Origin: Acetobacteraceae bacterium
GTDB lineage: Bacteria > Pseudomonadota > Alphaproteobacteria > Acetobacterales > Acetobacteraceae
Reading direction: 5' to 3'
Assembly: GCA_003164305.1 (NCBI GenBank)
Contig: PLSZ01000329.1
Span: 3,524 to 20,035 of the forward strand
DNA length: 16,512 nt
The notes beneath the pieces were generated by a model, which saw only the letters and a list, made by a program, of their open reading frames with translations, was not told the origin of the DNA and did not search any database. Shown piece after piece: positions 1 to 15,165 of this stretch (positions within the stretch are counted from its first letter, which is position 1; the number at the start of each line of letters is the position of its first letter). A program made the position numbers and the translations under genes.

Positions 1-70
1 ACCAAGAACCTTACCAAGAAAGCGCCGCGTGAACGGTGACGAACGGCAGCGGTCATTAGGCAGACACTGG

Positions 71-96
71 TGGGCCGCCAGTATGTGCGCGGCCCA
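71..96. other. GC hairpin, 8-bp perfect stem
   Basis: TGGGCCGC at 71-78 pairs perfectly with GCGGCCCA at 89-96 around a 10-base loop. It lies beyond the 3' end of the minus-strand gene that ends at 160. No T-run follows on either strand, so it is not a classic intrinsic terminator. It could still act as a 3'-end stabiliser or a weak terminator; that role is inferred. Confidence 0.45.
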
Positions 97-108
97 ATGT
101 CGTCCTCG

Positions 109-122
109 CCCGCATAGGCGGG
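109..122. other. Short GC hairpin downstream of the proteasome-like gene
   Basis: CCCGC at 109-113 and GCGGG at 118-122 form a 5-bp stem with loop ATAG. It lies between the stop of the gene ending at 160 and the stronger 71-96 hairpin. No T-run is seen. This may be part of a transcript end for that gene, but the short stem could also be chance in GC-rich DNA. Confidence 0.25.
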
Positions 123-159
123 ACTGGCGGGGGGAACTGCCGACCTACTGCCCGCCGTC

Positions 160-834
160 TCACTGAATCGGAGCGGTAGGTGGTTTGGTACTTTCGATCT
201 TTCCAAGCAGTACGTCTCGGAAACTTGTGAAATGCTCCGTGGCCGCTTGCACCAAGTCCTGGGTTTCCGAAAGCTCATCGTCCGATAGCATCCAAGGCTC
301 CAAACGGCCGTTGTGTTGACCAAGTGCAGCTATCTTGATCGGGATATTGATGCCGCCCGGATTCACATCGCATGCATGTTTGAGCGCCCAATATGCAGTG
401 AAGATGCCCCCCTTCACGTCAGGTGGGCCATCGGTCCAAAAAATCGTCTTGAACAGTGCCAGAAAGGGATCGGTAATCGACTGACCGCTACCCATCGACG
501 TGAACCAAAGATCATCGATCCGCTTTACCTCGGGTTGGAATCCAGTAGACCCCACTAATTCACATAAACACGGCTTATTATTCGCCTTGTAGGCGACCAG
601 CGCCGAGTATTGAAAGTTGGCGGTATTGAATGCAGGAATGGTTGATGCAAAATCGTTTACGCCGACGCGGGCCAGATGCTTTGCTGTCTCAATTTCCGAC
701 TTATTGTCGAACTCCTTTTTAGCGTTAGCGTCTCTTATGGCTTCGACAAATCGCTGATGGTGGCCCACATAACCTGTCCCAGCAACAATCAGTCGGTTGA
801 GGGTGCCAACGATTTCGACCTTTCGTTCGGACAT
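160..834 (-). CDS. Proteasome-like (Ntn-hydrolase fold) protein, N-terminally short
   Basis: The 224-residue product resembles the C-terminal three quarters of bacterial proteins related to proteasome subunits. Recalled family landmarks are an LIVAGTGYVGHHQRF segment (residues 15-29), a YSALVAY strand, LWFTSMGSGQSITDPF (about 108-123) and a late VNPGGINIPIKIAALG segment (about 157-172). In this fold the catalytic Thr sits at the extreme mature N-terminus, with Asp and Lys partners about 17 and 33 residues on. The chain here begins inside the fold, so the segment expected to hold Thr is absent. Two in-frame stops, TAA and TAG, lie immediately upstream of the ATG at 834, and no purine-rich ribosome binding site precedes it. 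The adjacent frames upstream show no convincing N-terminal piece. Base use is lower in GC than the neighbours: hand counts of single 60-base rows gave 43% at 601-660 and 53% at 721-780, against 68% at 4741-4800. It could be a decayed remnant or a non-catalytic homologue. The family call is from recognition, not a search. Confidence 0.5.
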   Translation of the reverse strand: MSERKVEIVGTLNRLIVAGTGYVGHHQRFVEAIRDANAKKEFDNKSEIETAKHLARVGVNDFASTIPAFNTANFQYSALVAYKANNKPCLCELVGSTGFQPEVKRIDDLWFTSMGSGQSITDPFLALFKTIFWTDGPPDVKGGIFTAYWALKHACDVNPGGINIPIKIAALGQHNGRLEPWMLSDDELSETQDLVQAATEHFTSFRDVLLGKIESTKPPTAPIQ

Positions 835-1018
835 CTAGAGTTATGTGCAATGGGTTTCTCGCACCAGTATCATGATATTTGTTATCGGCGTTCCGGGCGC
901 CGTAATGGCCGCGCGCGGCTGCTCCTCGAATCGGCATCGGTCAACACGCTGACGAATGGCAATCGGCCAAGATGCGTCGAAGTTTGCGAACCGTCGGGAT
1001 GGCGGGCGGCTGCAACGA

Positions 1019-2107
1019 TCAGGGAGCGAACGAAGCTTTGACCGCAGCGGCCTGGAATGCTGGGTCCGCCAAGGGAGATTCGGGAGGGACAGGAACGGCG
1101 CCCCTGTTCAACACAGCATACACTATGAATTCCTCGCCGGGACCGGCCAGGACAAAATAGTGAAGTGAGTTGGCGCCGGTCGAGTCTTTGCATCCCGTGA
1201 AAGCCCTTACGACGATCTTCCCATCAACGAGTTCGCTGGAACGGCCGGAGGCAAAATCCCCCTTGCACCCCGCTCCGTCGCCGGCGATCAAGTTGGACGC
1301 AATCTGTTGGGCGTCAGTACCAGCCGATCGAGGAACGACATCGACCGCACCACCGCCGATATCCGACTTCCACATTACGCCGTGACCTTGTAGCGCCTTC
1401 GGCGTCTCGGCCTGCGAAACAATCTGCGCATTGGGGAACTTTGCTTGCAAAAGCAAATTCGACGCGACCCGCATCGCAAGCAACTCGGATTGCGTCTGTG
1501 CTGGTTGGGGCGGGGGAGCGGACGGATTGACCGACCTTGGTTGCCCGTCTGCAATTCTGGGTGGTTGATCGCCACGTTCAAGTGCCAATTGCCCGCGAAC
1601 ACAACTGACTAATTCTAGCATCAGGCGGGAGGTTCCGTCGAGATTGAAAACGAATGTCTGACCAGCCGCGAGAACCTTCATCTCATATGCGCCACGGAAA
1701 ACGTTGATCAGGCTGGAATTGTCGGCCATCGGGATCATTGCCATCGTCTGTCCGATCGCGGTCCCCGAACCCGTCCAAGGTGAGCGGTCATCAAAAGTAA
1801 TCGCCAAAGGTATTTGCTGTTTCAACGTGAGGTTCCAGGCGGGATTCAAGAACGCAAGGTTCCAGGCATAAATGCGATTGACTGTTACGTACATCGTTGT
1901 GCCGCTGCGATACGGAACCCATGCGGAACAGTGGGAAAACTGGTGCGTCTGGTCATTACTGAACGCGGCGCCCTGCCACAAGCCGACGGGGGAAATTGAG
2001 AAAAGTTGCGCTGCTTCAGCTTGTCGGCACGGGACTATCGTAAGCGCCATTGCGAGCCAGGTGACCAGCGTGACTGATCGGCGAATGGCAGCGCGCACCT
2101 GTTCCAT
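1019..2107 (-). CDS. Secreted protein of unknown function
   Basis: Starting at the ATG at 2107, the product is 362 residues. It opens with a typical Sec signal peptide: basic n-region (MEQVRAAIRR), hydrophobic core (LVTWLAMALTIV) and a likely cleavage after AEA in CRQAEAAQLF. The mature N-terminal part is rich in Trp and aromatic residues (SHCSAWVPYRSG, YAWNLAFLNPAWNLTL) and resembles conserved hypothetical exported proteins of alphaproteobacteria. A Pro/Gln linker (PSAPPPQPAQTQ) separates it from a C-terminal part with one Cys pair (GAGCKGDF and FTGCKDS). The frame runs on to 2197, but GGGGAG at 2114-2119 lies 6 bases before the 2107 ATG, and the signal peptide only makes sense from there. 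The product probably acts in the periplasm or outside the cell. No catalytic motif is visible and the function is unknown. Confidence 0.75.
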   Translation of the reverse strand: MEQVRAAIRRSVTLVTWLAMALTIVPCRQAEAAQLFSISPVGLWQGAAFSNDQTHQFSHCSAWVPYRSGTTMYVTVNRIYAWNLAFLNPAWNLTLKQQIPLAITFDDRSPWTGSGTAIGQTMAMIPMADNSSLINVFRGAYEMKVLAAGQTFVFNLDGTSRLMLELVSCVRGQLALERGDQPPRIADGQPRSVNPSAPPPQPAQTQSELLAMRVASNLLLQAKFPNAQIVSQAETPKALQGHGVMWKSDIGGGAVDVVPRSAGTDAQQIASNLIAGDGAGCKGDFASGRSSELVDGKIVVRAFTGCKDSTGANSLHYFVLAGPGEEFIVYAVLNRGAVPVPPESPLADPAFQAAAVKASFAP

Positions 2108-2113
2108 GATCGT

Positions 2114-2119
2114 CTCCCC
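2114..2119 (-). promoter_or_regulatory. Ribosome binding site that decides the start of the secreted-protein gene
   Basis: On the minus strand, GGGGAG lies 6 bases upstream of the ATG at 2107-2105. The alternative first codon at 2197 would put about 30 uncharacteristic residues ahead of the signal peptide. This site therefore favours 2107. Confidence 0.6.
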
Positions 2120-2138
2120 ATCGATCATCCAAACCGCA

Positions 2139-2166
2139 ATATTACGCGGTTGACGGCCTCCCGCAA
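2139..2166 (-). promoter_or_regulatory. Possible sigma-70-like promoter for the secreted-protein gene
   Basis: On the minus strand, TTGCGG (2166-2161) and TAATAT (2144-2139) are separated by 16 bases and lie about 31 bases before the ATG at 2107. The -10 match is fair and the -35 match is only TTG. Its position inside the longer open frame agrees with the shorter gene start. It is weak evidence on its own. Confidence 0.28.
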
Positions 2167-2309
2167 TAGAAACCGCCGAAGTGCCTTTAATCGTCATGGC
2201 ACCAATGCCAAAGGTAGACCCGCATCCAACCGCGAGGCCACATTTAGAAGACCGGTGGGGGCGGATTAGGAAATTCGGGAATAATGGTCTTTGTATTAGC
2301 CCTCAGTCG

Positions 2310-2576
2310 CTATCTTTCTTCGTCGTCAGAAATCGTCGCTAGGAACCGTAGACTCTGCCGAAGCAACGCCGTCACAGCGCGCCTTTCCGCCACCGCCTCA
2401 GCCGTGTGCAGCCCTTGCCCGTAAGCACCGTTGTGCGCCCCTTTCGGCCCGCCGCCTCCCGCGCCATGGAAGCGGCAGACCGTCCAGCCTGTGACCGCCG
2501 GGGCCTGACACCGCACCCGTGTCCGCTTCGAGGTCGCGGTACAGCGTGGGGACATGTGCATAGGAAGTGCTGCCAT
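2310..2576 (-). CDS. Small Cys/His protein of the 'HGG...KHG' type
   Basis: The product is 88 residues from the ATG at 2576; a GTG one codon upstream is an alternative. It has Cys spaced C-X10-C-X10-C-X2-H (C12, C23, C34, H37), reading PRCTATSKRTRVRCQAPAV then VCRFHG, which suggests a small zinc-binding knuckle. A Gly-rich stretch (GAGGGGPKGAHNGAYGQG) and a basic/acidic helix (HTAEAVAERRAVTALLRQ) follow. Small alphaproteobacterial proteins often read RCxAxTxxGxxCxxPA...CRMHGG...GAPxGNxNAxxHGxYT, with the same AERR helix. The knuckle and helix are kept here, while the middle motif has diverged. The function of the family is not known to me. The ATG overlaps the stop of the upstream gene as TGATG, with AGGA 8 bases before it, so translation is probably coupled. 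The family is recalled as a frequent neighbour of the 'GGQAIVG' proteins, which fits the tail fused to the giant gene here. Confidence 0.7.
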   Translation of the reverse strand: MAALPMHMSPRCTATSKRTRVRCQAPAVTGWTVCRFHGAGGGGPKGAHNGAYGQGLHTAEAVAERRAVTALLRQSLRFLATISDDEER

Positions 2577-3073
2577 CACGGGGTTCCTGGGTTAGCGTCC
2601 ATCGGCATTGCTCGCGTCCAATTGCGGTGTGAATACGGCTCCAGATAAAGGCGAAGCGCTTGGGAGAGCCCCGGATAGCTCCAGGCATCATTCCAGCCCG
2701 GCGCGTTGCCATGCTTGGTTTTGACCCAGTGATACAGGTCGCTATGCGGCACCAGGAACCAATCCCGCCCGGGGATACTGCCCGCAGGATCAGGAAAGAG
2801 CATCCAAATTGAAAGATCGCCGCCATACCTCTTGGCGTCAACAGTCGGCCGCGCCTTCAATTGAACGACATGCAGGCCGCCACGCGGCGAACGGACCACC
2901 AAATCTTCGCCGTAGGAATCAGCCTCGGGTCGATAGACGCGGAACCCGGTCCGGATCAGTAGCGCTGTCGCTTCCGCGCGATTGGCAGCCTCTCGCTCAT
3001 TAGAGGTCAGGTGGACCGGCGCAATCTCTCCCGTCGGATCATGGGTTGGTTGCGGAGACGTAGCGCCTTTCAT
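2576..3073 (-). CDS. PD-(D/E)XK nuclease-like protein
   Basis: The product is 165 residues. The core looks like a compact PD-(D/E)XK fold. A helix carries a Glu (NRAEATALLIRTGF, E34), a strand carries an acidic residue (SYGEDLVV, D57), and the next strand reads HVVQLKARPTVD with Q71 and K73. Q-x-K in place of E/D-x-K is known in some members of this superfamily, so activity is possible but unproven. The following RYGGDLSIWMLFPD and DWFLVPHSDL segments match the beta-rich remainder seen in short proteins of this kind. The start is the ATG at 3073-3071, sharing ATGA with the stop of the giant gene; GGGAGG at 3081-3086 lies 7 bases ahead. Its own stop shares TGATG with the next gene. It is likely a cytoplasmic DNA-acting or formerly DNA-acting protein. 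The family call is by motif reading; a substrate cannot be given. Confidence 0.6.
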   Translation of the reverse strand: MKGATSPQPTHDPTGEIAPVHLTSNEREAANRAEATALLIRTGFRVYRPEADSYGEDLVVRSPRGGLHVVQLKARPTVDAKRYGGDLSIWMLFPDPAGSIPGRDWFLVPHSDLYHWVKTKHGNAPGWNDAWSYPGLSQALRLYLEPYSHRNWTRAMPMDANPGTP

Positions 3074-6000
3074 GGGGCCGCCTCCCGATTTCCTGCCCCC
3101 CCGGTGCCGCCGGGCGTCTGTGTTACCGCCCCCACGATCGCCTGCCCGCCTTCATTCACCGTGACGTGATGCACGGTCACCTTTTGCTCACCCCCCGTCC
3201 GATAGCGTTTAAGCGCCTCCATCTGCACCGCGAACGTCCGGGCCAGCTTGTTGAACGCACGTTCCGCACTGTCCTGCTGCTGGATGTTATCGACATGCGC
3301 GAGGCGCCGGGCAAAAGTCATCGTCATCGACTTAACCGGTCTCCCCGACACCACCAGCGGCGCCGCCCCGCGTGTTTCCCACGCCAGCGCGGTATCCGGC
3401 GCCAACCGAGCGGCGAAGTCCGGGAACAATCGGATCGTTTCGCCATGTCCGTGCTGATTGAAGTTCGCCCGGTCGCCGAGTTCCAGATAACTCTCCACCG
3501 TCAGACCCTCGGCCAGGATGACCTCGTGCCGAGGCAGTTCGACGTGGAAATACCGCACCCGGTCGCGCTTCACCTGAGTGACGCGCGTGCCGTCGATCAG
3601 CAGTTTCACCGGAACCAGAACGTCATTCACGAACACCGCGTGATCGGGGGACAAATAAAGATCTCTCATCGGAACGTTCTCGCCGAACGCCCCGGCGCGA
3701 ACCCGCACTGGCCACACTGTCTCCGGCCGCGGATGCCGATCGCAGTTCACCGCCCGTTGCCCGATCCAGACGATCGGCTCCTCGTGTCCATCCACGGTGA
3801 GCACAATGTCTCCAACCGCCAGGTCTTCCACCGCCACCGCGCCGCGCGAAGTCCCGATCCGCGTGCCTTCGGCGAAGCACGCCACCGCCTGCACGGTGTC
3901 GCCGTTGACGACGGTGAAGCTGCCCGGGGTGATCGCGGCGGCAAAGATAATCGAGTCGATGCCCCCGTTCCCCGCGGCCGTTCCGCTGTCTGTCACCGTC
4001 AGCGTGTCGCCGTTGGCGACACCGAGGTTCGACAAGGTCCCGCCCGTGATCACGAACGAATCCCCGGCCTTCCATGTCGCCACGGTTCCCGCGAAGCCGG
4101 CGATGTCGTCCAATTGAAGTACGCCGGTGCTGTCCTGAAACACCACGTCGATCACGCTGTTGTTGACCGAATACGTCCCCGTCGGAGTCAGGTTGTCGGT
4201 GAACGTCGTCGTCGCGGCGTTTAGCACCGCGCCGGTCAGCTCTATCGTGTCGTGGGTCCCGATCTGCAGAATCCCGGGCCCATTGACCGAAACGGAGCCC
4301 TTGATGTCGGCGGTGCCTCCGCCGACCAGCGTGCCTTGCACGACTTCGGTCTGTTTGCCGGCCTTGCCGCCGTTGGAAAGGATCGTTCCCTCGAGCAGAA
4401 TGAAATCGGACGCGATGGTGCCGAACCCGCCCGTCGTACTGCCGCCATTCTCGATGTACACGGTCGGGTCCAGCAGGCCGCCTTCCAGCACGACCCCGCC
4501 TTGCAGATTGACCACCGCCGCGTTCACCACCGCGCCTGGGCCAACCGTCAGATCGCCGGTGCCCAGAGCCGTGCCGATGTTCAACTGCCCCGAAATCGAC
4601 AGCAGCGATCCGTTGCCGGACACCACCAGCGCGCCCGAACTGTCCGTCTGCGAGCCGATCGTCAGCGACTGCGCCGAGAACGTCGCCCCGCTCAACACCG
4701 ACAGCACACCGGTCCCGTCATCGGCCACGGTGGCGGCGTTTGTGACCGACAGTTCGCTGCCACTGCCGGAGACGCTGATCTGCCCGATCGCCGCCGCGCT
4801 GTTGGCGGCGTCCAGCGACCCCGTGGTGACCGTCGCGCCGTTGCTGAGTTCCAGCACGCCAGAGCCGGCCACGCCCACGTCCAGCAGCCCCCCGACCTGC
4901 CAGTTCGAGCCCGCGCCGGACACATTGACCGACGACCCGCTGGCGCCCGTCGTGTTCGCGATGACCGCTCCGGCGATGCCGGCGACGGTGCCCGGCGTGG
5001 TGATCACGGTGCCTCCACCCTGGATGGAGAGACCGCCCAGGCCACCGTCGCCGACAACGAATTCTCCGGTGTTACTCAGCAACGATTTGGTGCCGCTGAC
5101 GACCGCGTCGCCGGACCCGCCACTGGTTTTCGCGATATCGAGACCCTGCGCGCTGTTGATCGCGGTGGTGCCAACCGTGACGGTCGCCTGGCTCTCGACC
5201 AGCAACCCGCCCAGTCCGGACTGGCCGGCGTCGAGTTCTCCCTCGGCGGTCAGCGCGCCGGCATCGACGGTCACCGCGCCGCTGCTGGAGCCCTGATCGA
5301 GCTGCATCGCCGCCCCGGGATCGACCAACAAAGTGCCGATGCCGGTCACACTTCCCGTGAGTTCCAGCGTGCCGCCATTCGCCGTGATCGTGCCAATGTT
5401 GGTCACCGCGCCCGTGACCGTTCCATACCCGCTGATATTGCCCTGGGCATCGACCGTCACGGGGTCGGTTTGCACCGTCCCGCCGGCCAGCGACAAATCC
5501 CCGGAGCCGACCTCAAGATTGATGATTGTCACGGTGCCGCCGACCGTTGTCGTGCCGGCGCCGTCGAGCACCAACGACTGGATCGTTCCGGTCGGAACGA
5601 TGCTCGGGTTGGCGACCACCTGGTCGAGCGAAACGACCTGCCCGCTCGCGGGGGCGTCGGTGATGGTGGTGCCTTGCATCGTTACTGCTCCAATGAAGCC
5701 GCTGTTGGTGAGTTCGAATACCGTGCCGTCGCTGTTGGCCCCGCCGCTTGAGGTCGTGCCGAACAGGTTACCCGCGAGATCGGCGATCAATCCGCCCTGC
5801 GCGCTGTCCCCGTTGGTGCCGTTGAAGCTGACAAGCGTGGCCGCGGTATTGGCGTAGCCGGCGGCGGTCTTCGAGACCCGGAACACGGTTCCGTCGTCAT
5901 TCGACCCACCTGCCTCGGTCGTGCCGAAAAGGTTGCCAGCGGAATCGACGATCACGCCGCCGGACGGAAAGAACCCGGTCGTGGTGTTGAAACTGACCAA

Positions 6001-9000
6001 CGTGGTGGGCGTGCTGGCATAGCCGGTGCTGGTGTTCAGGATCTCGTAAACCGTGCCATCTCCGCTCGTGCCACCTTGGAATGTGGTACCAAAGAGGTTC
6101 CCGGCGGCGTCCGCGACCAAACCGCTGGTTGGGTCCGCGCCGTCCGAATAATCGAAGCTGAACAGCGTCGTGGGTGTGCTCGCGTAGCCGGTTGCCGTGT
6201 TCACCACTTCGAACACGGTGCCTTCGTTATATTGGCCGCCGGACTGCGTGACTCCAAACAGGTCCCCGGCGGCGTCGGCGATCAAGGCGCCCGCGGGACT
6301 GCTTCCGTCGCCCCCGGCGAAGGCGATGAGCGTGGCCGGCGCGCTGGCGTAGCTGGTTCCGGTCCTGGCGATCTCGAACACGGTGCCATCGCTGTTCTTC
6401 CCGCCACCCTGGGTCGTGCCGAACAGATCCCCGGCGGCGTCGGCGACCAAACCATTGGGTCTCGAACCGTCAGTGCTGTTGAAGCTGGCCAGAACAGTTG
6501 GCGTGCTGGCATATCCGGTTCCGGTCTTGCTGATTTCGAACACGGCGCCATCGCTGAACGCACCACCTTGCGACAAGGCGCCGAAAAGGTCGCCAGAGGC
6601 GTCGGCGATCAGACCGGTATTTGGACCTGGTAGCGAGTTGACGAAGTTGGCCAGGACCTTTGGCGTGGCGGCATAGGTCGTGCCTGACCTGACGATCTCG
6701 GACACCGTCCCAACGCCTCCCTGTGCCTGCCCGCCGAAGAAGGTCGTGGCGTAGAGATCGCCGAGGGAGTCGGCGAGCAATCCACCGACCGGTTCCGACC
6801 CGTCGGTCCCGTTGAAATTGACCAGCGTGGTCAGGGTTGGAAAGGTCTGCGTCGCGTTGTTCGAGAACTCGATCGTGTCGCCCTGCGCGAAACCGAGGAT
6901 CACGTTGGGAACAGGTCCCGCGGTCGCGGGCAGCATCAATGTTTCCGGCGCGCCGGCGCTGAACATGATCGACAGTCCGGAGCCCAGAGCACCGTCGATC
7001 CGCAACGTGGCGCCGGATGCGATCGTCATCGACCCGGTGCCGCTGACCGAGCCGGTGATTTCCAGCTCGCCGCCGCTCGAAGAACTCAGGTTGTTGGTCG
7101 CCAGGATCGCGCCATTATCGACGACCGATGCCGCGATCAGGCCGTCACCCCCCAGCGTGTCATACTGGTCGATCGTGATGGCGCCGGCCGCATCCGCGCC
7201 GCTGTAGCCGACATCGACCCCGGATGTCGCGTCCACCGACAGCGTCGAGCCAGTCCACAGAAACGCGCCCGACGCTTGCAGAAAGCCGCCATTATCGACC
7301 GCCACCGTTCCGGTCGCGGTTCCCGATCGGCTGAACGCGCCGCCGCCGAGTATGAGGTCCCCGTATGTTTGAACCGACCCGCCATTCCGCACGGTCAGCA
7401 TACCGCTGCCCGACGCACCGACCGTCAGGCTGTTGAACGCCAACAGGTTGGAGCCGGGATCCGATACCAGGATGGTGCCGCTCGCGTTGGTGCTGCTCCC
7501 GATTGTAATGCCGTCGCCGGCCTGGACCGAACCGCCGTTGAGAACATTCAGGATGCCCTGACTGAACAGCCCGAGAAACATCGTGCTGGAGTCTTCCAGC
7601 AGCGAATTCGCGCCACTGACCGTGATCGTGCCCGCCGTCCCCAGCGTGTAGCCGACGAAAATACCGCCGAAGTTGGTGACCGTGGTGCCGCCCGACAGAT
7701 AATGCTGCTCCCCACCTCCGACATTGACCGTGCCGCCGTTGGTGACCGCCAGGGACGCCGCTCCGCCCGCCGAGAGAACCAGGAATCCGCCCGCGTTTGT
7801 CCCGATGTTCCACTGGCCGCCGGAGGACACCGTCACCGAGCCCGCGCTGTCGATCGAGTCGCCGACATAGGCGCGCGTATCGTTCAGCGTCGCGCCGTTC
7901 TCCACCGTCAGCACCGCCGCTCCGGCATACGGCGATTGGGCCACGCCCGCCGGAGTGCTCGCCGCGTAGCCATTGAACCCGACCGTCATATAACCGCGGC
8001 TGTTACCGGTGTCGCGCGGATCGAGTTCGTCGGTCCAGGTCGTGCCCGGGCCGGTCAGGGTCAACTCGCCGAACGATGTCGGATCCGAACCGAGTTCGGT
8101 AAACGTGGCGCTGACCACCCCCCCGTTCTCAACCGTGACCTGGGCCGGCGCCCCCGCGTATCCATAGCCGATGTAGAACGAACCACCGTCCGCCCCGGGC
8201 GTTGTCTGGCTCGTTCCGGCATCCAGCGTCGCGCCGTTGATCAGCGCCGAGCCGGCGATGCGCACGCCAATACTGTTTCCGGCCTGGATCGTGACCGTGC
8301 CATTGATCGATATGCTGTAATTCAGCGCGCCCGCCACATCGAGCACCGATCCGGGATCCAGCGACAGTTGCGCGCCGGTGCCGTATTGCACGAGATATCC
8401 GGCGGTCAGTGTGTTGCCATTGGTCACCTCGAGCGTGCCGCCGAGCATGCCGATGCTGTCCGGCACGGTGGAACTCGCGCCACTGGCGGCCGTCACCGAC
8501 GTCGCGCTGGTGATGCGCACCAGGGCGTTCGAGTCGTCGAGCAGGAAGCCCGCCGTCGTGAGCGGCGACGAACCGGTCGTCAGCGTGAAGGCGCTGGCGC
8601 TGTCGAAGCCGATTTCGGTCGTGTCCAACGTTCCCGGCGCGCTGCCCAACGACCAATCGCCGCCGGTCTGCCAGGGCCCGGACGCGTCGTTCCAGACATC
8701 CGCCGCCGCCGCGGTGGTCAGCAGTGTGTCGCCGTCGGCGCCGGTGCTGAAGGAAAAGCCGTCCGCCTGACCGCCGGTCACCGCGAAGGTGCCGTAGTCA
8801 TGCACGCCATCCAGCACCAGCGAGGCGAGAATGGTCCCGGCCGCGTTCTCCAGCGACAGCAGATCGAACGCACCGAGCGTACTGCCGTAAACGATCGTCG
8901 CGACGGTCAACGCCGCGCCAAGGTCGATCGTGTCGCCTGTCGCGAAGCCGCGAATATGGCCGGCGGAGTCGAATTGCGTGACGTTGTCGATTTTCAGAGT

Positions 9001-11322
9001 GTCGCCGGTGACGCCGCCGGCGAAAATATAAGTCGGGCCGAAATATCCCAGCGACGAGGCAACCGCGATGTTCGTCTCGATCGTGCCGCCGTCCTCGATG
9101 ATCGCCTCGCCGGACACGCCCGCATAGCCGGCGTCAATGACGTTGGCGGCGGTGTCGATGAACACCGAGCCACCGTTGGCGATGATCGAGCCGGCGTTGA
9201 ACAGCGCCGTCGTCCCGGCGATGGCGATGGTCAGCGTGTTGCCGGCATCCGCCATGATCGTGGCGTCGTTGATGAAATACCCGGGCGCCGTGCCATTCTG
9301 CGCCACGTTCAGCGTGAACGAACTGCCCGCCGGCCCGTCCGCCAGAATCGTGCCCAGATTGACGAAGCGGCCGAAGGCGTTGAGCACCGTCATTCCCGGC
9401 GCCGCCTGCCCGGACACAAGGCTGTCGATCAGGCTGCCAGCATCGACGCTGGGATTGCCGTGGGTGATCGCGCTGTCGCCCGTGAAGCTCAGCACCGCCG
9501 CGGCGCCGGTGCCCGCGACCTCCACGATGGCGGAATTCAACGTCTGATCAAGCAGTTCTTGTAACGTTCCGCTGGTGACCGCGATCACGTCCGACATGGT
9601 GGTGGTCATTACCGTGTCGCCATCGGCGCCGGTGCTGAACTGCAACACTCCCGCTATGCCGGTGGCGGGATTGACCCGCAGGGTGCCCGGCTGGCTCAGA
9701 TCGCCGATCGCCAGCGCGGCAAGCACCGTCCCTCCGCCGCTCTCCACGTCGAGGATGCCGCCACTGTAAACCACCTGGCTCACCGCGAGCGAGCCGCCGA
9801 GATCGATCGTGTCGCCGGCGCCGAAGCCCTCGATCCGGCCGCCGAATTGCGTTGGCGTATCGATCTTCAGCGTGTCGCCGGTGATCCCATCCGCGAACAG
9901 GAACGTGTTCGTGGAGCCGCTGGCGCTGGCGGTGCCGGTCGCGTTGGTTTCGATCGTGCCACCGCCGCGGATCACCGCGGTGCCCGGCGTCTGGGCGTAG
10001 AGCGCTCCAGCCGATGCGTCGATGAACAAGGAGCCGCCGTTGGCGATCAATAAGCCCGCGTTGAACAGTTCCGCGCCGGCGGCGATCGAGATGACCATGC
10101 TGTTGCCGGCATCGACGCGGATCGTGCCGTCGTTGGTGAAGCCGCCCTGGGTTGTCACGCCGTTGGTGGCGTTCTGCGTCACCTCGATCGTGAACGTGCC
10201 GCCGGCGGGACCATCGGCCAGAAGCTGACCGCTGTTAACGAAAGTCCCCGCCGCTTGCAGCACCGTCACGCCAACGGCGGTCTGACCCGGGATCAGGCTG
10301 TCGATAACGCCCTGGCCATCGACGCTCGGGTTGGTCGCGGTGATGACGGAATCGCCGGAAAACGCCAGCACCGCGGCGCCACTGGTGCCCGCGACCTCGA
10401 TCGTGCTGCCGTTCAGCGTCGCGTCGAGCGGAGTCTGCATCGTTCCGGTATTGACCGCGACGCTGGCACCCACCGCGTTGGCGGCGGCGATCGAGGCGAT
10501 CGTTCCGGGAATGTCCTGCAAATTCACGCTGGTGAACTGCGCATTGGTCAGATACGGAACATTGAGCAGCACCTGCCCGGTCGAAACGCGGGTGAGTTGC
10601 GCGCTGGAAACGGACAGGTTCAGCAGGCCCAGGTTGCCGGTGCCGACCAACGAGTCGATCAACGAACTGGTCAGCGTGACGGGAAACGTGCCATCGATGA
10701 CAAGTTGATAATCATTGGAAACGAACGTGAGGCTCGTGGCCCCGAAGGTCAGCGAGCCGATCTGGGTGCCGTCGTTGGTGATAACGATCGAGGACAGGCT
10801 GATGGCCGGCCCGCTGTACGTGCCGGCGGCGATCGCCTGCACGGCGGCCGCGGTATTGGGCAAATTGACGCCGTTCAGCGCCACTTCCATCGGCCCGCTG
10901 GAGACGGTCATCTGACTTGCGCTGAACGTGGCCGAGGCGATGATCGTTCCGCCGGTGACGGTCCCGTTCTTGAACGATCCGCCGGAGTAAAGCTCGGCCG
11001 CGGTGACCGTGCCGTTGACGGAAGAAAGCTTGATGCTGCCCGGGTCCAGAATGCCCAGAAGCGTGGCGCCGGCGATCGACATGCCGCTGCCCTGGATCAG
11101 CAGCGTATAGGCGCCGTTGTCGGTGGAGAGGGCTATTTGCGCCGTCGAAAGTTGCAGGTATTTCGTCGATGCCGAGAACTGCTGGGCGAAGCTTTCCAGC
11201 GCGTTGAGATTCGGCAACTGAAACTCGTTCTCGATCTGATTTTCTATATCCGGCAACAGGACCGAAAAGAATGCCTCATCGTTCAAGGAAATTCCGCCAT
11301 TTGAGGATGTACTCTGGCTCAC
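3070..11322 (-). CDS. Giant repeat protein with C-terminal Hint domain and fused tail
   Basis: The product is 2750 residues, starting at GTG 11322 with GGGGGAAG 6 bases upstream. In order: a Ser/Thr/Gly-rich N-terminal region (1-290) with no Sec signal peptide; two tandem ~290-residue modules (292-575 and 576-871), each ending in FSTGADGDT; an autotransporter-like strip (WNDASGPWQTGGDW, about 876-890); beta-solenoid repeats of T5SS/PEP-CTERM type to about 1450; seven GloVer-type repeats (1498-1876); more solenoid repeats to about 2400; a GDTLTVTDSG linker; a Hint domain beginning at C2482; and an 85-residue tail (2666-2750) unlike Hint proteins. Proteins built this way in Acetobacteraceae are thought to be exported adhesin-like surface or matrix proteins, some probably by type I secretion; here that is inference. 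Composition is poor in Cys and Lys, typical of secreted solenoids. Its stop overlaps the nuclease-like gene, so expression of a surface protein and two small, probably cytoplasmic, proteins is tied together. The many open frames on the opposite strand are by-products of the repetitive GC-rich coding sequence. Confidence 0.9.
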   Translation of the reverse strand: MSQSTSSNGGISLNDEAFFSVLLPDIENQIENEFQLPNLNALESFAQQFSASTKYLQLSTAQIALSTDNGAYTLLIQGSGMSIAGATLLGILDPGSIKLSSVNGTVTAAELYSGGSFKNGTVTGGTIIASATFSASQMTVSSGPMEVALNGVNLPNTAAAVQAIAAGTYSGPAISLSSIVITNDGTQIGSLTFGATSLTFVSNDYQLVIDGTFPVTLTSSLIDSLVGTGNLGLLNLSVSSAQLTRVSTGQVLLNVPYLTNAQFTSVNLQDIPGTIASIAAANAVGASVAVNTGTMQTPLDATLNGSTIEVAGTSGAAVLAFSGDSVITATNPSVDGQGVIDSLIPGQTAVGVTVLQAAGTFVNSGQLLADGPAGGTFTIEVTQNATNGVTTQGGFTNDGTIRVDAGNSMVISIAAGAELFNAGLLIANGGSLFIDASAGALYAQTPGTAVIRGGGTIETNATGTASASGSTNTFLFADGITGDTLKIDTPTQFGGRIEGFGAGDTIDLGGSLAVSQVVYSGGILDVESGGGTVLAALAIGDLSQPGTLRVNPATGIAGVLQFSTGADGDTVMTTTMSDVIAVTSGTLQELLDQTLNSAIVEVAGTGAAAVLSFTGDSAITHGNPSVDAGSLIDSLVSGQAAPGMTVLNAFGRFVNLGTILADGPAGSSFTLNVAQNGTAPGYFINDATIMADAGNTLTIAIAGTTALFNAGSIIANGGSVFIDTAANVIDAGYAGVSGEAIIEDGGTIETNIAVASSLGYFGPTYIFAGGVTGDTLKIDNVTQFDSAGHIRGFATGDTIDLGAALTVATIVYGSTLGAFDLLSLENAAGTILASLVLDGVHDYGTFAVTGGQADGFSFSTGADGDTLLTTAAAADVWNDASGPWQTGGDWSLGSAPGTLDTTEIGFDSASAFTLTTGSSPLTTAGFLLDDSNALVRITSATSVTAASGASSTVPDSIGMLGGTLEVTNGNTLTAGYLVQYGTGAQLSLDPGSVLDVAGALNYSISINGTVTIQAGNSIGVRIAGSALINGATLDAGTSQTTPGADGGSFYIGYGYAGAPAQVTVENGGVVSATFTELGSDPTSFGELTLTGPGTTWTDELDPRDTGNSRGYMTVGFNGYAASTPAGVAQSPYAGAAVLTVENGATLNDTRAYVGDSIDSAGSVTVSSGGQWNIGTNAGGFLVLSAGGAASLAVTNGGTVNVGGGEQHYLSGGTTVTNFGGIFVGYTLGTAGTITVSGANSLLEDSSTMFLGLFSQGILNVLNGGSVQAGDGITIGSSTNASGTILVSDPGSNLLAFNSLTVGASGSGMLTVRNGGSVQTYGDLILGGGAFSRSGTATGTVAVDNGGFLQASGAFLWTGSTLSVDATSGVDVGYSGADAAGAITIDQYDTLGGDGLIAASVVDNGAILATNNLSSSSGGELEITGSVSGTGSMTIASGATLRIDGALGSGLSIMFSAGAPETLMLPATAGPVPNVILGFAQGDTIEFSNNATQTFPTLTTLVNFNGTDGSEPVGGLLADSLGDLYATTFFGGQAQGGVGTVSEIVRSGTTYAATPKVLANFVNSLPGPNTGLIADASGDLFGALSQGGAFSDGAVFEISKTGTGYASTPTVLASFNSTDGSRPNGLVADAAGDLFGTTQGGGKNSDGTVFEIARTGTSYASAPATLIAFAGGDGSSPAGALIADAAGDLFGVTQSGGQYNEGTVFEVVNTATGYASTPTTLFSFDYSDGADPTSGLVADAAGNLFGTTFQGGTSGDGTVYEILNTSTGYASTPTTLVSFNTTTGFFPSGGVIVDSAGNLFGTTEAGGSNDDGTVFRVSKTAAGYANTAATLVSFNGTNGDSAQGGLIADLAGNLFGTTSSGGANSDGTVFELTNSGFIGAVTMQGTTITDAPASGQVVSLDQVVANPSIVPTGTIQSLVLDGAGTTTVGGTVTIINLEVGSGDLSLAGGTVQTDPVTVDAQGNISGYGTVTGAVTNIGTITANGGTLELTGSVTGIGTLLVDPGAAMQLDQGSSSGAVTVDAGALTAEGELDAGQSGLGGLLVESQATVTVGTTAINSAQGLDIAKTSGGSGDAVVSGTKSLLSNTGEFVVGDGGLGGLSIQGGGTVITTPGTVAGIAGAVIANTTGASGSSVNVSGAGSNWQVGGLLDVGVAGSGVLELSNGATVTTGSLDAANSAAAIGQISVSGSGSELSVTNAATVADDGTGVLSVLSGATFSAQSLTIGSQTDSSGALVVSGNGSLLSISGQLNIGTALGTGDLTVGPGAVVNAAVVNLQGGVVLEGGLLDPTVYIENGGSTTGGFGTIASDFILLEGTILSNGGKAGKQTEVVQGTLVGGGTADIKGSVSVNGPGILQIGTHDTIELTGAVLNAATTTFTDNLTPTGTYSVNNSVIDVVFQDSTGVLQLDDIAGFAGTVATWKAGDSFVITGGTLSNLGVANGDTLTVTDSGTAAGNGGIDSIIFAAAITPGSFTVVNGDTVQAVACFAEGTRIGTSRGAVAVEDLAVGDIVLTVDGHEEPIVWIGQRAVNCDRHPRPETVWPVRVRAGAFGENVPMRDLYLSPDHAVFVNDVLVPVKLLIDGTRVTQVKRDRVRYFHVELPRHEVILAEGLTVESYLELGDRANFNQHGHGETIRLFPDFAARLAPDTALAWETRGAAPLVVSGRPVKSMTMTFARRLAHVDNIQQQDSAERAFNKLARTFAVQMEALKRYRTGGEQKVTVHHVTVNEGGQAIVGAVTQTPGGTGGAGNREAAP
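3073..3327 (-). other. C-terminal tail (residues 2666-2750) fused after the Hint domain
   Basis: The segment starts MTMTFARRLAHVDN, continues NKLARTFAVQMEALKRYR and ends with HHVTVNEGGQAIVGAVTQ plus a Gly-rich end. As I recall, this is the C-terminal half of a short alphaproteobacterial protein of unknown function (roughly 150-180 residues), whose middle reads AAMTFARRLAHV and whose end reads QKVTVQHVTVNEGGQAIVG. Such proteins are often encoded next to the small 'HGG' protein, as here. The preceding residues APLVVSGRPVKS match the usual end of Acetobacteraceae Hint proteins. The join therefore falls at about residue 2665 (base 3328). No stop, start or frame change separates the two parts. Confidence 0.65.
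3460..3879 (-). other. Hint (hedgehog/intein-type) domain, residues 2482-2621
   Basis: The domain begins with Cys in CFAEGTRIGT (C2482) and continues AVEDLAVGDIVLTVDG, the usual first block. The second block reads DLYLSPDHAVFV, with H2561 in the TxxH-like position (here SPDH). The last block reads RYFHVELPRHEVILAEGLTVESYLELGDRANF. This pattern fits the Hint_2-type family found at the C-end of large alphaproteobacterial proteins. Hint folds can break the peptide bond before the first Cys. The C-terminal Asn and +1 nucleophile of true inteins are not seen, so N-side cleavage without splicing is the reasonable expectation, by inference. Confidence 0.85.
4500..5210 (-). repeat. Second block of T5SS/PEP-CTERM-type solenoid repeats (approximate limits)
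   Basis: Within the giant protein, units alternate between forms like LSIQGGGTVITTPG, VNVSGAGSNWQVGGLLDVG, LELSNGATVTTGSL, ISVSGSGSELSVTNAATV and LTVGPGAVVNAAVV. This 'G-x-G-x-L-x-V-x-x-G-x-x-V' rhythm is typical of the T5SS/PEP-CTERM-associated repeat and predicts a beta-helix. The units are diverged, so the limits are approximate. Confidence 0.6.
5695..6831 (-). repeat. Seven GloVer-type repeats (residues 1498-1876)
   Basis: Seven units of about 55 residues follow the pattern L-x-x-F...GLIADAAGDLFGTT..GG..DGTVFEI...TGYASTP. The invariant parts are the (V/I)xDxxGxLFG and GxVFE motifs. Unit starts read TLVNF, VLANF, VLASF, TLIAF, TLFSF, TLVSF and TLVSF. The first unit is the most diverged (GDLYATT). 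Seven such units are the number expected for one closed beta-propeller; that structure is inferred. The block follows the segment GFAQGDTIEFSNN and interrupts the solenoid. Confidence 0.8.
7330..8145 (-). repeat. First block of T5SS/PEP-CTERM-type solenoid repeats (approximate limits)
   Basis: Units such as VTVENGGVVSATFTELG, LTVENGATLNDTRAYVGD, LAVTNGGTVNVGGG, LNVLNGGSVQAGDGITIG and LTVRNGGSVQTYGDLILG recur, linked by GTITVSGANSLLED-like strands. They predict a right-handed beta-helix, the usual stalk of large surface proteins. Confidence 0.6.
8710..10449 (-). repeat. Two tandem copies of a ~290-residue module
   Basis: Copy A (10449-9598, residues 292-575) and copy B (9597-8710, residues 576-871) share the same order of landmarks: IEVAG / VEVAG, FSGDS / FTGDS, TNPSVD / HGNPSVD, IDSLIPGQTA / IDSLVSGQAA, LADGPAG in both, DAGNSM / DAGNTL, IIANGGS-like, GGTIETN in both, GDTLKID in both, GDTIDLG in both, and FSTGADGDT in both. 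Related DNA is also visible, for example GGCGCCGGTGCTGAA near 8738 and 9625. The copies have diverged clearly at the protein level, so the duplication is not recent. Confidence 0.85.
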
Positions 11323-12630: not shown

Positions 12631-15165
12631 TTACTCCACCGCTTCTTTTTCCCACCGCCGATTGTTTGACGCGCTGAGAATCTCGTCAAGAATATCCGCC
12701 AGCAGACGGGCCTGATTGTCATTGAACCAGATCGCTGGTGCCTCGCTCAGCATGAAGCGACCGGCGGCTTCGTTAAGGACCCAGTTCATGGGCGCCGCGT
12801 CGCCGGCCCCTGGCCGTGGTAGCGCGATGTGGATGAGACGGTTCTTGCCCGGATCGTCCGGATGGCAAAGTCGCCGCCGCAGGATCTGAAGGCCATCGAC
12901 GCCATGCGCGCCTCTTGTCGCGATCAGGCCAATCACTGGCGCGCCGCCCTCGATTGTCGGCGATCTGGCGGCCTCTCCCCGCGCCGCCAACGTCTGATGT
13001 AGCTTTAGCGAGTTGGCGTTCAGATTGTCATTCCCGGCTACCTCCGCGCTGGCGGGCGGCGCGTCGGCATCTGGCAACGACGGATATGGTTGCAGACACG
13101 ACGCCGCGAATCGTGGAAGATCGTATTGCGCGGTGTCGGCGTCGTTGGTGACCAGGACGACGATCGGCACCAGATTCCAGCCGTTCGCTTTGCCGATGCG
13201 CTCGATCGCGAGCACCAGGTCGTCGGCGGTTCGGCTACCGTAATTATCGAAATAGCCGCCGTCGATCACCTGCCGCCCAGCTATCCGGCCGGGCGGCGAG
13301 AGCAGCGGAAAGCGCGCCGAATTGGTGACCGCCGTCGCCGCGGCCACGTCGAACCCGAACCGCCCCAACAGATCTTCCGCCAGCGGGAATTCCTGATCGG
13401 CCGGATCGAACCTGACGGTCGAGGTGATCAACCGGCGTCCGTTGTCCACGTCCGTCCCATTGAGAAACAAATGCGGCGCGAGGTCCCCGAGACTTTCGCG
13501 CAACGAAACGAACCCTTCGCGCGACGTCGTCCAGCCTTGCCCGGCCTGAGATTTCGGCCACCAATCGACCCAGTTCCGCTGGAAGCCGTATTCGAGCATG
13601 ACCGCTCGGTCGTTGTAGTTGCCCCACACGCGGTGCAGCGGCAGTAGCCGCATCAGCGCGTCGTTGAGGAAGAAGCCGGCGAGCGCGGGCGAAAGGGGAT
13701 CGCTCGTCACCATGGTCCCGAGGCCGGCGCTCATCGTGTCAGGGCGCGGCCCATGGCACGGACTGGCGTGGTTCGCGCGATCGACGTTCAGGGCCTGTAG
13801 ATACGTAACCGCCCCCAGACTGCCGCCGGATACGCCACTGATGGCGAACAAGTACTGACCGAACCGCCCGGCGGTGTGCTTGTCGTCATCGAGCATGGCG
13901 GCGGCGGAGAGGAACCACACGGCGGCGCGGCTGGCGCCACCCTCGGCGGCGGCGATGATCACTGGCAACGGGGCCTCGCGCGGATGCCCGCAGGTATTGA
14001 TTTGCGCGTCGCGCCAGCGCGCCAAAGCCTCTCGCAGGCCCGGCAGCGGCGGGAGCGGCAACGACGAGTCGATCAGGTGAATCTCATAGAGTTTCGGCGA
14101 TAACAGTTGCTCGAGGCCGGTCGGGGTGGCGAACACCAGCCAAACGAAGCCGGCGGTGCCAACGAGCAGTTTGGCGGTGCGGCCGCCCGGAAGCGCCGCC
14201 CATGCGCGCCAGGGAAACGCGAGTGACCGTACGACGATCAGTCCCAGGGCGAACGGGCCGGCGACCAGGCCCAGGGCGACCATGGCCGCGGACGGCGCGC
14301 GGAACAATGCCGGCACGACCAACGGCCACGTGTCGGAGGCGTAGCAGGCCACCGCGGCGGCGGTCAGCACCAAAATTCCGACCGGCCAGCCCAGGGGTGC
14401 TCCGGCGATCAGGCCGAGAGGCGGATAGCGCCATATCCATTTGGGAATGTGCTTCGGCACCCAGTCACGACGTTGCGCGACATACGCCAGGACCAGAAGT
14501 ACGGTCACCGTGGCGATGGCGATCCACCACGGGCGCGTGCCATCCGGCATCGTGAGCAGCAGGACAAACCACAGCGCCAGCGGCACGAGAGCGGCCGCGA
14601 CATTGGCGCGGCGATAAATCGTGAACGGCAGCACGCTCGCCAGGAATATCGCCAGCGAAACGGCGGCCGCCCCGAAATGGTAAGGCAAGTTGAGCGAAGG
14701 GTGCAGCCAGGCCAGAACGGGAGGCGAAATGGCCATCAGCGCGGCGGGCAACGCGGCCCAGCGCGGCGCCTGATGATAGCCGGCCTTAAACCAATCCCAG
14801 AATGGCGTGGCTCCGGCCAATGCCGGATCGTAGGGCGCGTCACGGTCGTCCTGACCGGCTTCGGCGTTCAGTCCCGCCCGGGTCCAGTACCACGAGGCGA
14901 GGCCGAGCACGCCGGACGCACAGCCAAGCCCTCGGCCGAGGCGCCACCATCCCTGTCCATCGGCACCATCCGCCATGCCCGCGAACATGTCCGGCATTTG
15001 CGGGGCGAGAAGGATGATGCCAAGCGCGATGCACGGGGTGACGACACCGGCGGGCGCCAGCCACCAGGCATGCAACAGCCCGGCGAGCGCGCCGATCCGG
15101 GGACCGCGCAGGGCCCGAAGCAGCGCGATGAGCAGCAGAAGGCAGACGATCGATGGTGTTGGCAT
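12631..15165 (-). CDS. Polytopic membrane protein with patatin-like phospholipase domain
   Basis: The product is 844 residues; GGAG lies 8 bases before the ATG at 15165. The first ~350 residues hold about ten hydrophobic segments (near 5-17, 36-54, 77-95, 137-154, 163-183, 189-206, 213-229, 260-277, 290-312 and 331-347). The C-terminal half carries the three patatin signatures in order: an oxyanion-loop Gly/Arg motif (AAEGGASRAA, 406-415), the nucleophile elbow GVSGG with S446, and the Asp of the Ser-Asp dyad in VIDGGYFDNYG with D635. TNSARFP (614-620) lies between, as is usual. Patatin domains hydrolyse acyl esters of phospholipids or related lipids. All catalytic residues are present, so activity is expected. 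The membrane anchor suggests action on bilayer lipids; which side of the membrane is not clear. The gene follows a lipoprotein gene by 64 bases, with a strong hairpin between, and probably shares its transcript. It is unusual in being a patatin with a long polytopic N-terminal half. Confidence 0.88.
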   Translation of the reverse strand: MPTPSIVCLLLLIALLRALRGPRIGALAGLLHAWWLAPAGVVTPCIALGIILLAPQMPDMFAGMADGADGQGWWRLGRGLGCASGVLGLASWYWTRAGLNAEAGQDDRDAPYDPALAGATPFWDWFKAGYHQAPRWAALPAALMAISPPVLAWLHPSLNLPYHFGAAAVSLAIFLASVLPFTIYRRANVAAALVPLALWFVLLLTMPDGTRPWWIAIATVTVLLVLAYVAQRRDWVPKHIPKWIWRYPPLGLIAGAPLGWPVGILVLTAAAVACYASDTWPLVVPALFRAPSAAMVALGLVAGPFALGLIVVRSLAFPWRAWAALPGGRTAKLLVGTAGFVWLVFATPTGLEQLLSPKLYEIHLIDSSLPLPPLPGLREALARWRDAQINTCGHPREAPLPVIIAAAEGGASRAAVWFLSAAAMLDDDKHTAGRFGQYLFAISGVSGGSLGAVTYLQALNVDRANHASPCHGPRPDTMSAGLGTMVTSDPLSPALAGFFLNDALMRLLPLHRVWGNYNDRAVMLEYGFQRNWVDWWPKSQAGQGWTTSREGFVSLRESLGDLAPHLFLNGTDVDNGRRLITSTVRFDPADQEFPLAEDLLGRFGFDVAAATAVTNSARFPLLSPPGRIAGRQVIDGGYFDNYGSRTADDLVLAIERIGKANGWNLVPIVVLVTNDADTAQYDLPRFAASCLQPYPSLPDADAPPASAEVAGNDNLNANSLKLHQTLAARGEAARSPTIEGGAPVIGLIATRGAHGVDGLQILRRRLCHPDDPGKNRLIHIALPRPGAGDAAPMNWVLNEAAGRFMLSEAPAIWFNDNQARLLADILDEILSASNNRRWEKEAVE

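Follow-up and report, generated by a model that had tools for sequence, protein, structure and literature searches.

The described elements closest to the gene neighbourhood treated here are the satellites known as PICI (PMC6092414) and PICMI (PMC10803314), whose gene content is similar to that of a set of islands marked by two genes that we refer to as FAM and HGG. FAM is a label coined here for an unnamed, widespread family of stand-alone proteins with a model length of 216 positions. Like PICI and PICMI, some FAM-HGG loci bring together in ~4-6 kb a tyrosine integrase, AlpA, a gene for replication or for a primase, and a tRNA close by. For PICI and PICMI, helper phage, excision and packaging belong to the description, whereas the FAM-HGG loci are known here from their genes alone, and the passages on PICI and PICMI do not name FAM or HGG. 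Searches of the literature for HGGxSTG / HGG_STG, and for a Hint domain together with Acetobacteraceae, found no publications.

A second point of comparison is provided by Hint_2 proteins that carry T5SS/PEP-CTERM-associated repeats. Hedgehog/intein-type domains can self-cleave at their N-terminal Cys. The window (the whole stretch of 16,512 nucleotides that was analysed, from contig PLSZ01000329.1 of an Acetobacteraceae bacterium) shares the passenger repeats and the Hint_2 domain with these proteins, but its Hint protein ends in a fragment of FAM. A plausible explanation, and in our judgement the probable one, is that this tail comes from a FAM gene reduced to its broken 3' end, the remnant of a decayed island that became fused in frame to a Hint gene.

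The fused reading frame

The window contains a giant open reading frame of 2750 amino acids on the minus strand (3070-11322), in which a repeat passenger is followed by a Hint_2 domain and then by the C-terminal fragment of FAM. The passenger repeats match TIGR04393 (T5SS/PEP-CTERM-associated) and TIGR03803 (GloVer) above the curated cut-offs. The Hint_2 domain (PF13403) lies at residues 2482-2614 (3481-3879, minus strand), with a score of 156.5 bits against a curated cut-off of 28.4 and an E value of 8.1e-46, and Cys2482 is present at its N-terminus. The nearest relatives of the Hint part show 75-77% identity across 68% of the searched stretch. A reading of the sequence alone had already proposed that two unrelated families are joined in frame at about base 3328, and both the open translation (...WETRGAAPLVVSGRPVKSMTMTFARRLAHVDN...GGQAIVG...NREAAP*) and the match of the tail to a family other than Hint_2 bear this out. 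At the join, APLVVSG is followed by the five residues RPVKS and then by MTMTFARRLAHVDN, which continues up to the stop. The origin of RPVKS (3328-3342, minus strand) is ambiguous: its codons can be clearly assigned to neither side, and the position of the join is therefore uncertain by ~15 nt (3328-3342). DNA matches in the 397 genomes compared stop before it or begin after it.

Homology to FAM covers residues 2666-2750 (3073-3327, minus strand), and the profile match extends to 3339, so that window residues 2662-2750 correspond to profile positions 128-216, approximately the last 40% of the 216-position model and hence somewhat less than the C-terminal half suggested by the sequence-only reading. 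In an alignment of 30 FAM relatives and the window, homology begins at about residue 133 of one full-length relative (P0005, 216 aa). The N-terminal part of the family varies whereas the C-terminal part is strongly conserved, and of the two only the C-terminal part occurs in the window: it lacks the N-terminal 127-132 positions, as that reading had also predicted, and the Hint protein stands in their place. With homology confined to positions 128-216, the tail is a fragment rather than a whole-length member of the family, although FAM residues and reading frame are intact within it. When residues 2667-2750 were searched alone against proteins of ~72-229 aa, 3946 of 3969 candidates matched at E ≤ 1e-3, and the best relative was 90% identical over the 84 residues searched. 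The best 120 of the 3946 matches were listed and the sequences of 57 of these were examined. Stand-alone proteins starting upstream of the join were found in this search as anticipated, but with another length than the 150-180 aa given by the sequence-only reading, full-length relatives among the matches listed having ~205-229 aa, where the upper figure is the limit set by the ~72-229 aa admitted and any longer relatives would have escaped the search.

Neither the tail nor FAM matched a known domain above cut-off or convincingly in Pfam, NCBIfam or PHROGs; the match of FAM to phrog_11268 (function unknown) had an E value of 6.6e-4. Foldseek comparison of the modelled FAM fold with PDB and with viral models gave no hit at E ≤ 0.001, terminase small subunits were reached at E 0.88-2.6 only, and the VIA-align rows for FAM were generic helical hairpins. 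In the FAM model (mean pLDDT 76.8) the break falls within a predicted helix at positions 117-141. Blocks of the tail average 40-53 in a model of the fused protein (mean pLDDT 62.7); this is weak evidence, because low confidence starts already in the last part of Hint, which is equally low, and so does not single out the tail. Third-position GC is similar (0.75 in the tail versus 0.78 in Hint) and codon usage in the tail does not depart from the range seen in the passenger, so that a recent origin of the tail is neither supported nor excluded by composition.

A search with residues 2470-2750 among 3639 candidate proteins of ~1510-4810 aa gave 107 matches. Ends could be placed in 92 of the 107; they extend a median of 29.5 residues beyond the point that corresponds to the join (middle half 21-42), and are of other sequence where the window has the FAM fragment. 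Pairwise comparison of 86 ends found 68 of 3655 pairs alike at E ≤ 1e-3. Short and mostly unconserved as they are, the C-terminal ends of Hint proteins appear, on sequence grounds, to be tolerant of change. We consider it very improbable that the tail is a functional domain recruited by Hint surface proteins: its frame and FAM residues are intact, but only one of the 107 giant Hint proteins carries it, namely the window's own (P0123), the FAM profile found nothing convincing in the 86 other Hint ends (best E 0.073), and the fragment begins, according to the model, in the middle of a helix.

FAM-HGG islands

A genome scan yielded 34 FAM loci. Their titles include Methylobacterium, Bradyrhizobium, Acetobacteraceae and Rhodobacteraceae, and some of the loci belong to MAGs that bear the labels of other phyla. 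The scan used two C-terminal FAM words and could thus find no copy lacking the C-terminal part, which biases the apparent retention of FAM 3' ends. In 32 of the 34 loci FAM is succeeded by an HGG gene of the same orientation, and the longest frames that can be read for the two genes overlap by four bases in 8 of the loci L001-L022. L026 and L027 represent a single Reyranella-titled region in two MAGs, with HGG upstream: at 5169-6240 of either locus the order is reversed, HGG preceding a FAM piece (positions 113-193), with an integrase adjacent. The pair was also seen in L099 and L115, besides L001-L034. With the FAM profile, 24 of 397 Acetobacteraceae-group genomes gave a match, mostly distant. 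To the disadvantage of an island origin, FAM was rarely met in viral contigs (0 and 1 loci by search, 0 by pattern), absent from the phage records searched, and present in 5 plasmid records, none covering 80% of FAM.

Genes typical of islands, where found, lie mostly on one side of the pair. Among the 26 loci with at least 3 kb of upstream sequence (L027 being left out as a duplicate), a tyrosine integrase was found upstream of FAM in 10, AlpA, replication or primase genes in 11, and either in 13; the other 13 have no island gene upstream. Downstream of FAM-HGG, integrase was found in 0/25 and AlpA, replication or primase genes in 1/25. It is this contrast between upstream and downstream that is informative, because the island-gene profiles were seeded from the same loci, and with these profiles integrase, AlpA and primase occur all together in L021 and L024 only. 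In scanned examples, Pfam confirmed Arm-DNA-bind_3, Phage_int_M, Phage_integrase, AlpA, Toprim, PriCT_2 and Prim-Pol. L014 has tRNA-Leu, integrase, AlpA, an HTH protein, FAM and HGG in 4.4 kb, and in L032 a partial repeat of a tRNA-Ser end (14/16 nt) lies on either side of the stretch from integrase to HGG. tRNA genes were detected in 5 of the 18 loci searched, and L032 is the one of these five with a good tRNA-end repeat. On the question of whether HGG is related to terminase small subunits, comparison with phrog_9231 gave E 4e-5 for the protein of L002 and E 0.2 for that of L005.

We tentatively suggest that an undescribed family of small, tRNA-associated islands resembling phage satellites, found mainly in Alphaproteobacteria, could have FAM and HGG as its signature pair, possibly with a role in packaging, and that the FAM-HGG end might be a recurrent edge at which cargo is gained or the island is cut back, occasionally fusing host or cargo genes to FAM ends, as with the Hint gene of the window. 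Should these islands prove to be satellites, a role open to testing would follow for many hypothetical alphaproteobacterial proteins.

Genes downstream of the fusion and other broken FAM copies

As in intact FAM genes, the stop of the FAM fragment overlaps the next start. In the window, however, this start (ATGA) belongs to a 165-aa open reading frame (2576-3073, minus strand) that separates the FAM piece from HGG. The 165-aa protein is weakly PD-(D/E)XK-like, with 15 bits against PF11645 (below the cut-off of 26.1) and E 0.002 against PADLOC PDC-M02A, for which no cut-off is given. Relatives were found in 5 of 397 genomes, in no plasmid record and in one viral contig, and neither FAM nor HGG was present in the 3.3-10.4 kb around each. 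The protein is 59-61% identical to stretches in L109, L110 and the 47-kb viral contig L114.

The HGG gene of the window (2310-2579, minus strand; 89 aa from a GTG, with the matched part at 2334-2561) scored 98.1 bits against a profile of FAM-linked HGG proteins and 17.4 bits against HGG_STG (NF041373), below the curated cut-off of 29. HGG thus follows FAM on the same strand here too, and its location 0.5 kb downstream of the fusion, which the sequence-only reading had pointed out correctly, is accounted for by the intervening 165-aa frame (2576-3073). Next comes a secreted-looking protein of 392 aa (1019-2197, minus strand), with homologs that follow HGG in L022 and lie near HGG in L115. This family is rare (5 of 397 genomes), and since four of these five genome copies have no FAM or HGG in the 3.7-8 kb examined around them, its link to FAM-HGG rests on the window, L022 and L115.

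A counterpart of the window is L022, a locus in a MAG, where a MazF gene precedes a FAM copy that begins at position 124, and HGG and a relative (49-52%) of the 392-aa protein come next. The order of FAM end, HGG and secreted-protein gene is common to L022 and the window, while the breakpoints differ. At 5406-8572 of L022, a small open reading frame, the MazF-type gene, the broken FAM, HGG, the 392-aa homolog and a serine recombinase gene are consecutive. The IMG/VR contig L115 contains Prim-Pol, FAM, HGG, a radical-SAM/Nif11 cargo block and a second FAM end with HGG, while the opposite strand encodes a 33% homolog of the 392-aa protein. Its cargo block is flanked by a direct repeat of 300 nt (5118-5417 and 8351-8650, 95%) that comprises the FAM 3' end and the start of HGG.

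FAM ends also occur on other proteins. Among proteins of ~350-1120 aa, the tail was found in 13 of 214 candidates, none of which lists a Hint domain. Nearly the whole of FAM is present in 6 of the 13 according to the profile, and in three (P0236, P0237, P0241) FAM starts from positions 52, 44 and 149, respectively, after a different protein for which a Pfam domain had been precomputed. In P0234, P0240 and P0242 FAM starts from positions 121-143 at residue 1 of the protein, and in P0239 from position 139, with 42 residues ahead of it. The partner in P0241, an M28-type peptidase, precedes FAM from position 149 on a contig of 2.1 kb and may be part of an assembly chimera. In L100 a broken FAM adjoins an IS1380 transposase. 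FAM fusions thus appear, from the sequences, to recur with varied partners and breakpoints, and in the light of these broken or fused copies (L022, L100, P0236, P0237, P0241) the domain combination in the window looks like one instance of decay around a mobile element. A fixed recombination site inside FAM was considered and ruled out by the differing profile start positions of the broken copies (128 in the window, 124 in L022, 113 in L026/L027, 101 in L100 and 171 in the second copy of L115).

Origin of the join

The same join was found nowhere else in the proteins and genomes searched, as had been suspected from the sequence. Besides the single hit among the 107 giant Hint proteins, we searched DNA spanning the join (3073-3700 of the window, with the join at query base 373) in 397 genomes from the family to which G001, the Acetobacteraceae-titled genome with L022, belongs, and scored two candidates per genome. 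Matches were obtained in 48 of the 397, none of them across the join: the matches listed end by base 357 or start from base 377. The protein searches covered lengths of ~72-229, ~350-1120 and ~1510-4810 aa.

An alternative is that the join is an assembly or library chimera, the conserved C-terminal part of FAM being so abundant in metagenomes (3946 matches) that it could act as a misassembly-prone repeat; P0241 might be a similar case. We regard this as unlikely. The join lies ~20 codons ahead of the most conserved FAM block, the reading frame is preserved, and the downstream gene order matches that of L022. The protein cluster of P0123 has 6 member sequences, the longest contig being 24,740 bases, but these members may not come from independent samples. 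Furthermore, when the Hint DNA (3328-3912) was compared with FAM genes from 14 of the 34 loci, the longest exact words in common had 8-13 bases, close to the means for shuffled FAM (8.8-10.1). Words of this size would not suffice for an overlap error of the assembly, and they also argue against homologous recombination at the join.

It is also quite improbable, in our view, that the C-terminal stretch is a separate short FAM gene, started at an ATG or by re-initiation and overlapped by a Hint gene that has merely lost its stop. There is an ATG at codon 2666 (3327) with GGGGAG 13 nt upstream, but this spacing is long for a ribosome-binding site and the giant frame is open all the way through. 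In favour of this reading, the broken FAM of L022 has a small open reading frame whose GTG overlaps the mazF stop, and some catalogued relatives of 82-97 aa begin at or near the start of the window's fragment, though many of these are on short contigs.

We therefore return to a decayed island as the probable source of the tail. The FAM-HGG pair often closes small integrase/AlpA/primase islands, and a copy of such an island may have been next to the Hint gene's 3' end or have come to rest there. Rearrangement, by deletion or insertion, would then have taken the last ~20-40 Hint codons and the first ~130 FAM codons, the frame being kept by chance; the island could have lost its left side in place, or an already broken island end could have come there. 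The sequence-only reading had proposed a deletion or recombination that joined two genes, which holds for the in-frame join but missed the islands, the inserted 165-aa frame and the other broken FAM copies. In contrast to PICI and PICMI, the window copy has no integrase, AlpA or primase: no match to any of these was found in the window, nor any clear flanking or telling repeat in window positions 1-5000, and its island origin consequently rests on FAM, HGG and one neighbour.

Translation would now end at FAM's own stop, and the overlap of this stop with the start of the next frame means that translation of the 165-aa protein and HGG is possibly coupled to that of the giant protein. The tail itself probably does no work, since its first residues fall within a predicted helix, its model has low confidence and it takes the place of Hint ends that are short and mostly unconserved. 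If Hint self-cleaves at Cys2482, the tail would be released together with the Hint part, leaving the surface passenger as it is. The fusion, unique in what was searched, is most readily explained as a leftover of island decay; as a protein it is probably a by-product of limited interest and not purpose-made, although it illustrates how an island remnant may supply a surface protein with a new C-terminus. The better lead is the FAM-HGG islands, a very common unnamed gene pair with satellite-like content that is broken in several places.

Lastly, the window also encodes, at 12631-15165, a protein of 844 aa that matches a patatin-like phospholipase (PF01734, E 5e-8) and has a long N-terminal stretch that by eye looks membrane-like.
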